From Chloroflexota bacterium (GTDB lineage: Bacteria > Chloroflexota > Anaerolineae > Anaerolineales > UBA11579), in assembly GCA_016191875.1 (NCBI GenBank), contig JACPVG010000008.1:62001-126000 (forward strand): a DNA stretch of 64,000 nt. The letters are read 5' to 3'. The first letter of the stretch is position 1. Every line of letters begins with the position of its first letter. The translations under genes and the position numbers were made by a program. The notes under the pieces are model-generated. The model ran no database searches and was not told the origin of the DNA. It saw nothing but the letters and a program-made list of their open reading frames with translations. Positions 27,228-51,840 of the stretch are shown piece after piece.

Positions 27228-27300
27228 GCCCTGGTAGCTCAATGGACAGAGCAAAGCACTCCTAAGGCTGAGGTTGCAGGTTCGATTCCTGCCCAGAGCA
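27228..27300 (+). tRNA. tRNA-Arg(CCT), copy 1
   Basis: Cloverleaf by eye: acceptor GCCCTGG (27228-27234) with CCAGAGC (27293-27299), six of seven pairs (C-A mismatch at the third); D stem GCTC/GAGC; anticodon loop CTCCTAA with anticodon CCT at 27261-27263; T stem GCAGG/CCTGC with loop TTCGATT; discriminator A. The anticodon stem AAGCA/GGCTG has only three good pairs, with A-G oppositions at both ends. CCA is not encoded. Together with the acceptor mismatch this copy may be less functional than copy 2. Confidence 0.8.
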
Positions 27301-27662: not shown

Positions 27663-27735
27663 GCCCCGGTAGCTCAATGGACAGAGCAAAGCACTCCTAA
27701 GGCTGAGGTTGCAGGTTCGATTCCTGCCCGGGGCA
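27663..27735 (+). tRNA. tRNA-Arg(CCT), copy 2
   Basis: Same sequence as copy 1 from the D arm to the T arm, but the acceptor GCCCCGG pairs perfectly with CCGGGGC. Anticodon CCT at 27696-27698. The anticodon stem has the same two A-G oppositions as copy 1, so that feature predates the duplication and is probably tolerated. CCA is not encoded. A TATACT box lies about 80 bases upstream. Confidence 0.88.
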
Positions 27736-28257: not shown

Positions 28258-28488
28258 ATGTCTGAACGAACACATCATCACGTTCCCTGGTTCATCTGGC
28301 CGTTCTGGGCTATCCTGCGCCTGGTCGGCTTCATCATCGAGATGGCCGGCCGGCTGGTCGGCGCCATCCTCGGCTTCGTGTTCATCGTGGTCGGCGTCAT
28401 CATCAGCCTCACGGTGATCGGGGCCATCGTGGGTGTGCCGCTGGCCGCCTTTGGCGCGCTGCTTTTCTTCCGCAGCCTGCTGGGGTAA
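28258..28488 (+). CDS. 76-residue two-span membrane protein
   Basis: A GGAGG lies 8-12 bases before the ATG. After a His-rich start (MSERTHHH) come two hydrophobic segments (~10-40 and ~42-72) rich in Ile, Val and Gly, ending FFRSLLG. It resembles the small membrane proteins often annotated as hypothetical in Chloroflexota. No motif gives a function. Confidence 0.72.
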   Translation: MSERTHHHVPWFIWPFWAILRLVGFIIEMAGRLVGAILGFVFIVVGVIISLTVIGAIVGVPLAAFGALLFFRSLLG

Positions 28489-28525: not shown

Positions 28526-28553
28526 TTGACAAACCGGGACAATTGTCTATAAT
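28526..28553 (+). promoter_or_regulatory. Sigma70-type promoter of hairpin RNA unit 1
   Basis: TTGACA (28526-28531), 16-base spacer, TATAAT (28548-28553): both hexamers are consensus. The hairpin begins 7 bases downstream, so transcription should start at its first base. Confidence 0.85.
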
Positions 28554-28560
28554 CTGCTCT

Positions 28561-28599
28561 GACGAACGTCGGGGTGCCCCCCTCACCTCGGCGTTTGTC
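28561..28599 (+). ncRNA. Candidate small hairpin RNA, unit 1
   Basis: Arms 28561-28576 and 28584-28599 pair over all 16 positions, 13 Watson-Crick and 3 G-U, around a CCCCCCT loop. The 3' arm and loop are identical to unit 2; the 5' arms differ only at positions that stay paired. The unit lies immediately behind a consensus promoter. TTTAAACAAC follows, without a second hairpin. No open frame is present. It could be a small RNA or a transcription attenuator. Confidence 0.65.
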
Positions 28600-28690
28600 G
28601 TTTAAACAACAAGCTAACCGGCCGGCAGGACGTCATTTGGGAGTAGGGTAAGCGTAGGCAGATTCTTATTTTTCTCTTATCGTTTTTATC

Positions 28691-28719
28691 TTGATTTTTT
28701 TTCTGCACAACACTATAAT
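28691..28719 (+). promoter_or_regulatory. Sigma70-type promoter of hairpin RNA unit 2
   Basis: TTGATT (28691-28696), 17-base spacer, TATAAT (28714-28719), in a T-rich context that would favour strong transcription. The hairpin begins 6 bases downstream. Confidence 0.8.
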
Positions 28720-28725
28720 AATGGT

Positions 28726-28764
28726 GATGAACGCTGGGGTGCCCCCCTCACCTCGGCGTTTGTC
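28726..28764 (+). ncRNA. Candidate small hairpin RNA, unit 2
   Basis: Arms 28726-28741 and 28749-28764 pair over all 16 positions, with 4 G-U pairs, around the same CCCCCCT loop as unit 1. Compared with unit 1, the 5' arm has C to T, T to C and C to T changes, each keeping a pair with the unchanged 3' arm. A terminator-like hairpin follows 5 bases later. Confidence 0.65.
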
Positions 28765-28769
28765 GCTTT

Positions 28770-28793
28770 AACCGCCCTATAGGGGCGGTTTGA
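28770..28793 (+). terminator. Terminator-like hairpin behind RNA unit 2
   Basis: AACCGCCC (28770-28777) pairs with GGGCGGTT (28783-28790) around a 5-base loop, followed by TGATT. A weak T-run; it would end a transcript of about 65-70 bases. Confidence 0.55.
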
Positions 28794-28883
28794 TTCGGGG
28801 TGGACTCACCCCTCAAGGCGCCCCGCCAACCTAGACATTGTGTATAATCTTAGTCGGAAGGATTGGCCGGAAGGAATAACCTG

Positions 28884-30587
28884 ATGGCTTTAACAGGGGA
28901 CGGTAAATCGAAATGGGGGATTCTGGTTTTCGCCTCCATCCTCCTGCTTGGCTTGATGGGCGTGCCTGTCTTCGCCGCATATGCCCAGGTCACCATCCCG
29001 CCGCCGGACCAGACCGGCGTCACGCCGCTGGCCGCACCCGATCCCGCGACCACCAACCCGCGTTACCTGAGCGGATTCGGTCTCGACGACGCCTACACCA
29101 TCTTCTACGAAGACCGCGGCGACACCGCCGGCTGCGCCTTCGGGGCGCGCATCTATTACAACCAGACGACGACCGGAGCCTTCGGATTCGCGGCTGCCAG
29201 CACGGCCACCAATATCTGCGACACCCACTTCGTCGTCAAGGATTGGCCGATCACCATCCCGGCGCCCGACCCCAACGCCGGCGACTACGCCTACCGCGGT
29301 TGGGGGGCGGTGGGGAACAATCCCAGCCACACGTTTTACGTCTCCAACGACCTCACCAACTGGACGCTCATCAGCGTCTTCACCTTCACCGACCCCGGCG
29401 GCGTGGCCCCCGGCGAAGGCGTCTACTACGGGTTTCATGACATTGTCGAACTGGATGGCGAATACTACGGCTTTGCCGAAATGAACTCCGGCCGCACGGT
29501 CATCGTCCACAGCCTGCTCGGCGACGATGTGTGGGAAGTGGTCGCCAGCGTGGGCGGCCTCAACCCTGCTCACGGGCCGCTCCACCTGGGTTTCTTCCCC
29601 GGCATCACCGGCCCCACGCCCACCGGCAGTTTCCTGCTCATGCAGGTCGACGGCCAGCTGGTCTATGGCAAGACCAGCATGCCGGGAGATGATTCAGGCA
29701 TCTATCTGGCCATCAATCCACCCGCGGCGCAGGCCGCCACCCCGGCCGCGGCCGCGGCCGCCTTTGCCGACCCGGCCAACTGGACCTGGCGCGACGGTTC
29801 GACCGGCCTGCCAGACGCCGACAGTCTGATCCTGGGGAGCACCGCCGGCGCAGGCGGTCACGACATCCTGGAGACCTGGAGCCCGCCCATGTCCGACCCA
29901 AGCGGGGATTGGGTGCTCCTCTACACCGGCGAGTACGATGCCGGCGGCGGGCTGGGCAACCGCGCCTTCGGCTGCGCGGCGGTGACATCCGACTGCACTG
30001 TGACGATTCCCCCTTCGGCCCCGGTCATGCCCGCCGCGACAGCCACCCGCCAGGGCGGCGCGGATGATCCATTCTCTTTGCCGGAGACCGGCTTCCCGCC
30101 CGGCGTCGGGACCAGGCTCCCGGCCCGGCCGTCAGGTCGGCCCTACTGGGAGACCTCCCTGCGCCTGCTGATTCCCGCCCTGGGTGTGGAACTCCCCATC
30201 GTGGGCGTACCGCTGTTCGGTGGAGAGTGGGACGTTACCTGGCTGGCAGGTCAGGCGGGTTATCTGGAAGGCACGGCATTCCCCACCCTGCCGGGCAATA
30301 CGGCGCTGGCGGCCCACGCGGTCGCGCCCAGCGGCCTCCCCGGCCCGTTTGCCAACCTTGAAAACCTGGTCTATGGCGAGCAAGTCGTCATCCTGTCTGG
30401 GGGAAGCGCCTACATCTATGAGGTGCGGGAGAACCTCCTGGTGCGGCCGGACGACCGCTCTCCCTTGCGCCACGAGGAGTACGACTGGCTGACGCTGATC
30501 ACCTGCGAAGCCTATGACGCGCTGAACGGAACCTATGGCTATCGCCGGGTGGTGCGGGCTGTGCTGGTCGCGGTGGAAAGCCGCTAG
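28884..30587 (+). CDS. Secreted protein with internal LPETG motif fused to a sortase domain
   Basis: The protein has 567 residues from the ATG at 28884, with AAGGA 8 bases upstream; a TTG at 28863 is less likely. A signal segment (~11-32) precedes a large extracellular domain (~35-380) with WTLISVFTF and YYGFHDIVELDGEYYGFAE strands, resembling beta-propeller or glycan-binding modules but not assigned. An LPETG motif lies at 399-403 (SLPETGFPPG). The C-terminal part (~425-567) is a class D/F-like sortase: His478 in LAAHAV, Cys541 in LTLITCEAY, and Arg554/555 in YRRVVRAV. Sortases cut LPxTG proteins and join them to a surface acceptor. No membrane span follows the sortase domain, so the N-terminal segment may be the anchor. 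Its 3' end overlaps the convergent next gene by 4 bases. Confidence 0.85.
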   Translation: MALTGDGKSKWGILVFASILLLGLMGVPVFAAYAQVTIPPPDQTGVTPLAAPDPATTNPRYLSGFGLDDAYTIFYEDRGDTAGCAFGARIYYNQTTTGAFGFAAASTATNICDTHFVVKDWPITIPAPDPNAGDYAYRGWGAVGNNPSHTFYVSNDLTNWTLISVFTFTDPGGVAPGEGVYYGFHDIVELDGEYYGFAEMNSGRTVIVHSLLGDDVWEVVASVGGLNPAHGPLHLGFFPGITGPTPTGSFLLMQVDGQLVYGKTSMPGDDSGIYLAINPPAAQAATPAAAAAAFADPANWTWRDGSTGLPDADSLILGSTAGAGGHDILETWSPPMSDPSGDWVLLYTGEYDAGGGLGNRAFGCAAVTSDCTVTIPPSAPVMPAATATRQGGADDPFSLPETGFPPGVGTRLPARPSGRPYWETSLRLLIPALGVELPIVGVPLFGGEWDVTWLAGQAGYLEGTAFPTLPGNTALAAHAVAPSGLPGPFANLENLVYGEQVVILSGGSAYIYEVRENLLVRPDDRSPLRHEEYDWLTLITCEAYDALNGTYGYRRVVRAVLVAVESR

Positions 30588-31852
30588 CGCGACGAAGATA
30601 TCTCCGCCAGCGCTTCGCCGACATTCTTCACTTCCTCCAGTGTGTTGTAATGCACCGGCCCGAGGCGCACCATGCCGCCTTTGTCTTCGACCCCCAGCCG
30701 TTCGGTAACCGCCAGCGCGTAGTAGTTGCCATCCCAGGCGTAAATGCCGCGCTTGTCCAGTTCCACCGCCACATCATGCGGGCGTATCCCTTCAATATTG
30801 ATAGAGAAGGTCGGGACGCGTTCCTCTATCCGCCGCGGGTCCGCCAGCCCATACAGCCGAACTTTTGGCAGGCTGGTCAGCATATCCAGCATCGCGCGGC
30901 TCAATTCGAACTCATAGGCCCGCAGCGCCGCCAGCCCCTTGCGGAGTTGCAGGCCGTGGCCTGAGTACTTTTCGGCCAGCCGCGCTTCCTGTTCGCCGCC
31001 AAACGCCTCCCCGACCCACGCCAGGTATTCCAGCGCGCCTAGCATCCCGGCGATGCCCTCATGGTTGCCGGTGCCGGTTTCCCATTTATAGGGCGGCTGG
31101 TTGCTGGCCGGGCGCACTTTGTAGGCCGTCAGTTCGTCCAGCAGGTCGTAGCGCCCGTAGAGCAGGCCGAGGTGCGGGCCGAAGAACTTGTAGGCCGAGC
31201 AGGCCAGGAAGTCGCAGTCCAGGTCCTGCACGTCGATGGGGCCGTGCGGCGCGTATTGCACCGCGTCGATGAAAATGACTTCCACCCCGGCGGCGCGCGC
31301 CTGCTGGATGATGCCCTTGACCGGGTTGATGGTCCCCAGGGCGTTGCTGGCGTAACCGAAAGCGGCTAGTTTAGGCTGGCGCTCCAGCGCCGCGCGCAGG
31401 CTGTCTGGATTAAGCGTGCCGTCCTCCACATCGAAATCCACCCATACGACTTCCGCGCCGCGCTCCTCCGCGATGCGCGTCCACGGCGTGATATTGGCGT
31501 CGTGGTCGAGGCGCGTCACCAGCACCCGGTCACCGGGGTTCAGCCGCTGCGCCAGCGACCGGCTGAGGTGCAGGGTGAGCGTGGTCATGTTGGGGCCGAA
31601 AACGATCTCTTCCCTGCGCGCCGCGCCGAGGAAATCGGCGGCCGCCCGGCGGGCTTCGTCCAGCACGGCGTCGCTCTCGCGGCTGAGGGCGAAGGCGCCG
31701 CCCTTGTTGCTGTTGGTGTGCAATAGGTAATCCAGCATGCGGTCGGCGGATTGGCGCGCCACCTGTGTGCCAGCCGGGTTATCGAAGTAAATGGCCGGGC
31801 GTTTCTCAAAGGCCGGAAACTGGGCACGGATGGTTTCGAGGTCGAGGGACAT
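30584..31852 (-). CDS. Cysteine desulfurase-like PLP enzyme
   Basis: The protein has 422 residues. Fold-type I aminotransferase class V features: YFDNPAGTQVARQ near the start, TRLDHDANITPW with the cofactor-stacking His, VIFIDAVQYAPHGPIDV with the PLP-binding Asp, and the Schiff-base Lys in LACSAYKFFGPHLG. It matches the VC1184-type cysteine desulfurase-like group rather than IscS or SufS: the C-terminal region lacks an obvious catalytic Cys loop, so sulfur transfer is not certain. No Fe-S assembly genes are adjacent. Confidence 0.87.
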   Translation of the reverse strand: MSLDLETIRAQFPAFEKRPAIYFDNPAGTQVARQSADRMLDYLLHTNSNKGGAFALSRESDAVLDEARRAAADFLGAARREEIVFGPNMTTLTLHLSRSLAQRLNPGDRVLVTRLDHDANITPWTRIAEERGAEVVWVDFDVEDGTLNPDSLRAALERQPKLAAFGYASNALGTINPVKGIIQQARAAGVEVIFIDAVQYAPHGPIDVQDLDCDFLACSAYKFFGPHLGLLYGRYDLLDELTAYKVRPASNQPPYKWETGTGNHEGIAGMLGALEYLAWVGEAFGGEQEARLAEKYSGHGLQLRKGLAALRAYEFELSRAMLDMLTSLPKVRLYGLADPRRIEERVPTFSINIEGIRPHDVAVELDKRGIYAWDGNYYALAVTERLGVEDKGGMVRLGPVHYNTLEEVKNVGEALAEISSSR

Positions 31853-51753: not shown

Positions 51754-51763
51754 CGGAAGTACG

Positions 51764-51790
51764 TTAGCACTCTAAGCATGAGAGTGCTAA
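51764..51790. promoter_or_regulatory. CIRCE operator (HrcA site)
   Basis: TTAGCACTC (51764-51772), 9-base spacer, GAGTGCTAA (51782-51790): a perfect match to the CIRCE consensus. HrcA binds it and represses chaperone genes until heat shock draws GroEL away. No hrcA gene is in the window. Confidence 0.97.
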
Positions 51791-51840
51791 CGTGCCGCAA
51801 GGGTCCCCTGACCCAAAACTCTAACACGGAGGAAGACCGT

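Follow-up and report, generated by a model that had tools for sequence, protein, structure and literature searches.

A family of C-loop hairpin RNAs in Anaerolineales with members on phage contigs

The window analysed here, a stretch of 64,000 nucleotides of Anaerolineales DNA, contains two nearly identical hairpins a short distance upstream of a sortase-domain gene, each behind a promoter of its own. The initial annotation left two readings side by side, namely two small RNA genes or paired 5′ regulatory hairpins, and placed the pair directly upstream of the sortase fusion. The locus raises the question of what the hairpins encode and whether the sortase gene has any part in it. Members of this order are abundant in sediments and digesters, and a literature search for Anaerolineales small regulatory RNAs found none. 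The finding proves to be larger than two units: the C-loop hairpins belong to an order-wide family with phage-borne members, and we have very little doubt that it is a genuine family of small RNAs.

The two units and their termini

Unit 1 is composed of a σ70-type promoter (TTGACA-16 nt-TATAAT, forward strand, positions 28526–28553) that matches the consensus at 12 of 12 positions, a hairpin with a 16-bp stem and a CCCCCCU loop (28561–28599), recognized by its fold, its homologues and covariation, and the motif TTTAA (28601–28605). Unit 2 repeats this order on the same strand, with a promoter (TTGATT-17 nt-TATAAT, 28691–28719) matching at 10 of 12 positions, a second C-loop hairpin (28726–28764) that folds likewise and scores 67.1 bits (E = 1.4e-13) with the covariance model, and TTTAA at 28767–28771. 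Judged by its family-wide conservation, this tail is part of the unit, alongside promoter and hairpin.

All 16 stem positions are paired in both hairpins. Their folding energies are −24.9 kcal/mol (unit 1) and −22.9 kcal/mol (unit 2), with z-scores of −5.2 and −5.4, and none of 200 shuffles is equally stable. A stem of 16 contiguous pairs with a 7-nt loop occurs at only these two sites in the window, and the two promoters found at the hairpins compare with 0.8 expected from shuffles of the region. Loop and 3′ arm are identical in the two units. The 5′ arms differ at positions 3, 9 and 10 (C/T, T/C and C/T), each time opposite a G, so that G–C and G–U pairs replace one another. Unit 2 is followed by a likely intrinsic terminator (28770–28796), a 9-bp GC-rich stem and the sequence TTTGATT, which a simple terminator scan missed because the T-run is short; the sister species G001 has a terminator-like stem with different arms in the same place. 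The initial description of the pair, with fully paired stems, wobble-absorbed differences, promoters 6–7 nt ahead of the hairpins and a stem closing unit 2, is accurate on each of these points. A third, more divergent copy in the same genome (G000:C28:27972-28015) is self-terminating, with TTTTTG directly after the hairpin. Two tRNA genes lie shortly upstream of the region, at window positions 27228–27300 and 27663–27735.

The same layout holds across the family. The −10 element ends 5–7 nt ahead of the stem base in most copies, and a promoter score of at least 8 out of 12 is reached by 87% of copies versus 31% of shuffles with the distance fixed. From this spacing the RNA should start at the base of the hairpin; for unit 1, the expected start is at or just before the first hairpin base. 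Of 127 copies, 33 have an intrinsic terminator no more than 150 nt away, compared with one in each of two controls, and the clear examples mostly end 40–70 nt past the stem. About three quarters of copies have no clear intrinsic terminator, and other copies carry a U-run immediately after the stem. The expected RNA, its ends being inferred, is about 45–110 nt long. The presence of individual promoters in most copies of the family supports the proposal of two small RNA genes.

Conservation, covariation and distribution

Fifty distinct copies, aligned gap-free, were used for a first covariation test. In these, 99.9% of stem cells are paired, 11 of the 16 stem pairs have changed on both sides, and none of 500 shuffles reaches the observed value on any covariation measure. 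In a larger set of 163 distinct hairpins, pairing still holds at 98.6% of stem cells, and the top 12 MI-APC column pairs among all columns examined are all stem pairs. On the transcribed strand, these hairpins contain 303 G–U cells versus 12 A–C cells. Such an excess of wobble pairs on one strand indicates that the plus-strand RNA is what selection sees, and a DNA-level inverted repeat was rejected on the same ground. The initial annotation had proposed selection on RNA and had looked to stem-breaking homologues as the sign to the contrary; covariation and the strand-specific wobble bear the proposal out, and the stems of the homologues are intact.

While the arms change, three elements stay fixed: the CCCCCCU loop, the flanking GGGUG/CACC and the trailing UUUAA. 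The loop reads CCCCCCU in 201 of 209 members and CCCCCCCU in four more, in a set whose selection required a C/T loop, and several of the hairpin collections were picked by patterns containing the loop. CCCCCCU or CCCCCCCU is retained as well in copies that the covariance model recovered and whose arms differ widely, with three of 40 covariance-model regions unmatched by the regular expression used for this check. The TTTAA tail lies 16–22 nt past the loop in nearly all copies, and conservation is limited to the −35 and −10 elements, the hairpin and TTTAA, falling to background level beyond them. A small open reading frame through the hairpin, which in unit 2 reads ATG...TAA, was considered and rejected because neither the start codon nor the frame to TAA is conserved (the TTTAA offset is 17, 18 or 19 nt in different copies) and because the stem changes are compensated.

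A 66-nt probe has matches in 42 of 101 related genomes, and the covariance-model search of Chloroflexota genomes that the initial annotation had suggested recovers an order-wide family: of 61 relatives searched with the model built here (R1), 51 contain the element, and the best E-value is 7e-16. Genomes usually carry 1–4 copies (range 1–7); tandem copies are spaced 109–193 nt apart, each unit with its own promoter. Scans of wider samples found the element in 28 (class-wide) and 21 (phylum-wide) genomes of the order Anaerolineales and, outside the order, gave two weak matches only, both from a single family within the class; the best 20–24 candidates per genome were scored in these scans, and weak distant members could escape them. 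In a pattern scan of GTDB, all titles among the matches listed are Chloroflexota, mostly Anaerolineales, and the isolates Leptolinea tardivitalis and Pelolinea submarina are among them. Rfam scans of the window and 20 homologous loci, at gathering and relaxed thresholds, returned only tRNAs or weak unrelated matches. The family is previously uncatalogued and recognized by no Rfam model, in agreement with the earlier remark that no known RNA family comes to mind. A divergent C-loop arrangement is seen at L050:11960-12080, where two GGGTG-CCCCCC(C)T-CACC hairpins stand close together and the usual promoter is absent.

Possible modes of action

Antisense action through the C-loop on G-rich mRNA is the best explanation of the family in our analysis, and we hold it with moderate confidence. 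Transcription would start from the σ70 promoter at the base of the 16-bp hairpin, which would shield the 5′ end and display the invariant CCCCCCU loop as a single strand; the RNA would end either at a U-run adjoining this stem-loop or at a terminator some tens of nucleotides further on. The loop would then pair with AGGGGGG or shorter runs of G in target mRNAs, in many cases close to the ribosome-binding site, and block translation without Hfq. Two or more copies per genome may provide a higher dose or respond to different signals. Dependence on Hfq does not fit the hosts, since Hfq (PF17209) was found in none of 41 genomes of relatives, the five control genomes being positive.

The confidence is no more than moderate because a search for targets gave neither G6 enrichment nor a conserved target. 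In a set of 1045 Anaerolineales ORFs, the sequence ahead of the start codon shows no enrichment of AGGGGGG. Over whole genomes, AGGGGGG-N4-9-ATG does not exceed a reversed-pattern control in most genomes; in the genome under study it occurs 14 times versus 7 for the reversed pattern, and other genomes show no consistent excess. Three congeneric genomes share no G-rich target that we could find.

Characterized RNAs provide precedents for such a mechanism. The 6C RNA B11 of M. abscessus has two C-rich loops, of six and seven C (PMC10470900), which base-pair with runs of G at ribosome-binding sites (PMC10470900; PMC9569102); pairing with the six-G tract at the eccB4 ribosome-binding site is proven by compensatory mutants (PMC10470900). 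The C-loop family resembles 6C/B11 (RF01066) in its loop of at least six C, its short stable RNA, its Hfq-free hosts and its several copies in some genomes. Whereas 6C transcripts carry two C-loop hairpins and are found in Actinobacteria, the family described here has one hairpin per promoter, a GGGUG/CACC stem top and a UUUAA tail, and belongs to Chloroflexota. The RF01066 model has no match in the genome under study and none above its gathering score of 47 bits in 41 genomes, where the best score is 28 bits, at another place; a relaxed Rfam scan of the window region likewise gave no 6C match. The sub-threshold scores, the single hairpin per promoter and the Chloroflexota distribution rule out membership in 6C, and the reading that best accounts for the comparison is an RNA that probably works like 6C without belonging to it.

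In Xanthomonas, the C-rich loops of sX13 act on G-rich motifs independently of Hfq (PMC3771888). sX13 shares the C-rich apical loops with the C-loop family and differs from it in its three stems, loops of 4–5 C, length of 115 nt and gammaproteobacterial host; its sequence is unrelated as far as we could see. The same paper discusses S. aureus RNAIII and H. pylori HPnc5490 (RepG), whose C-rich loops recognize G-rich sequences in their targets by base pairing (PMC3771888). Compared by description only, these two differ from the C-loop family in size and host. The alphaproteobacterial CCUCCUCCC-motif RNAs (‘cuckoo’, CcsR) are small RNAs that occur in tandem and carry an anti-Shine-Dalgarno motif in the loop. 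That motif differs from CCCCCCU, and the hosts of the C-loop family lack Hfq.

The GGGUG/CACC stem top and the UUUAA tail are unexplained by loop pairing alone, and a protein could recognize the hairpin. In this case a protein would bind GGGUG-CCCCCCU-CACC together with UUUAA, and RNAs present in multiple copies would titrate or assemble it, in the manner of CsrA-binding small RNAs. Such a role fits the observation that loop, closing stem and tail do not vary even as compensated changes accumulate in the lower stem, and it fits the tandem copies 109–193 nt apart and the lack of target enrichment under the antisense model. Against it, the loop has no GGA motif and therefore cannot make the RNA a CsrA/RsmE sponge, no candidate protein emerged, and the C-rich loops of this size that have been studied act by base pairing. 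We consider protein binding the less probable account, though one with an appreciable chance of being correct. Antisense pairing remains our preferred reading. It would amount to C-rich-loop riboregulation in another phylum, with a bearing on how often this mode recurs in bacteria without Hfq, and the strong covariation, fixed loop and ready covariance model make RNA regulation in an Hfq-free lineage testable in cultured species.

Genomic context and phage-borne copies

The pair is flanked upstream by a 76-residue membrane-type ORF without a Pfam match (28258–28488, forward strand) and downstream by the sortase-domain gene (28863–30587, forward strand; PF04203, E = 1.3e-19), both outside the RNA units. 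A class-V aminotransferase gene (30584–31852, reverse strand; PF00266, E = 4e-67) converges on the latter and is of interest as context only. The 76-residue ORF keeps its position beside the pair in G001 and G002, with 80–86% identity. In G001, the pair is flanked by this ORF (85% identical) and by the same aminotransferase (90% identical and again convergent). Each of the two units has its counterpart there, whereas the sortase gene is missing. The 574-residue sortase product carries its sortase domain at the C-terminus, and its gene has been gained or lost within the genus. At 51758–51796 the window contains an inverted repeat, TTAGCACTCT-N7-AGAGTGCTAA, which resembles a CIRCE (HrcA) operator.

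Clustering of the nearest neighbours at about 120 loci gave 131 clusters, of which 91 have a single member. Of 126 downstream genes, 54 share the strand of the hairpin and 72 are on the opposite strand; they represent many gene families. Syntenic positions are lineage-specific, next to class-V aminotransferase (a neighbour at 15–17 loci of the hairpin and convergent with many copies) and next to sequences that we recognized, without a family search, as presumably RecN, TrmH-like and Obg. The varying neighbours and the absence of the sortase gene in G001 argue for a stand-alone RNA, and the synteny with G001 rules out a sortase leader. A link to the sortase fusion is thus not supported, and paired 5′ regulatory hairpins are unlikely for the family as a whole.

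A more general cis-acting role, in which a 5′ hairpin stabilizes or attenuates whichever mRNA follows, draws on copies lying 11–70 nt ahead of a same-strand gene (a TrmH-like gene at nine loci, for example) and on L238 and L239, where a U-run follows the hairpin just ahead of an ATG. We judge it improbable given the opposite-strand majority, the differing gene families, the many copies with a terminator of their own and the G001 site without a sortase gene.

Twenty-five IMG/VR contigs carry the C-loop unit, and all score with R1 (43–70 bits). These contigs are related to one another and show no blastn relation to the cellular loci; named phage records gave no match to the hairpin unit. In 18 of the 25, a same-strand gene for the terminase large subunit lies no more than about 1.1 kb upstream of the unit; in 14, the unit is preceded by terminase and followed by portal. 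Related terminases (31–41% identity) occur in three genomes of the order. Because the RNA is shared and distantly related terminases exist in the order, these phages probably infect Anaerolineales. Three prophage-like regions carrying a related terminase were found in host genomes, and the hairpin was found in none of them.

The viral contigs, on which the hairpin mostly sits beside terminase and portal genes, could suggest that it is part of a phage or mobile element and that chromosomal copies are remnants. This is quite unlikely: the chromosomal copies adjoin housekeeping genes (recN, obg, trmH-like, aminotransferase), keep their promoters and stems, number 1–7 per genome and are syntenic between species, and the three prophage-like regions lack the hairpin. 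Less likely still is that the hairpin acts at the DNA level, be it as a cruciform, a recombination site or an operator, or that it is a plain terminator, for although it is an inverted repeat and a U-run immediately follows the stem in some copies, the strand asymmetry largely refutes this reading, most copies have a promoter upstream at fixed spacing, and the invariant loop sequence is one that a terminator does not need.

The phage copies are best read as further members of the small-RNA family, mostly with a putative regulatory site of their own. AGAAC-N4-GTTCT, with at most one mismatch, is present in the promoter region of 18 of 28 phage copies, compared with a single one of the 212 chromosomal copies. 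In Gram-positive bacteria, GAAC-N4-GTTC serves as the LexA motif (PMC3323433), and we infer that host LexA may bind and control the phage copy through this palindrome. The RNA, mostly located between terminase and portal and mostly behind the LexA-type operator, would then be expressed on induction, as the operator suggests. Promoters with AGAACAAATGTTCT or AGAACATTTGTTCT are also found just downstream of chromosomal hairpin copies (L085:2516-2529 and L220), a hint that this LexA-type box is also in use in the hosts.

These phage contigs raise the idea, which we hold tentatively and think rather less likely than antisense action itself, of an order-wide chaperone-free small RNA taken up by or shared with phages, placed in the packaging module under SOS control and beside a second uncatalogued small RNA. 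That a host-type small RNA is deployed on induction is testable; if true, phages use such an RNA to steer host or late phage genes during induction.

Directly behind the C-loop hairpin, most of the phage contigs (L322-L346) contain the second RNA gene (e.g. L344:6180-6320), which has its own promoter, a variable hairpin GGCAGTC...GAC, the sequence TCGGA-N-TGATG and a strong terminator. It shows double changes at 12 of 15 predicted pairs and had no Rfam match at the one locus scanned. Four contigs (L322, L332, L333 and L336) carry a further C6-loop hairpin with another stem, GUGGCGGGCGACUUG-CCCCCCU-CAAGCCGCUCGCCAC, and its own promoter; in three of these contigs this hairpin follows the first at a distance of about 90–100 nt.
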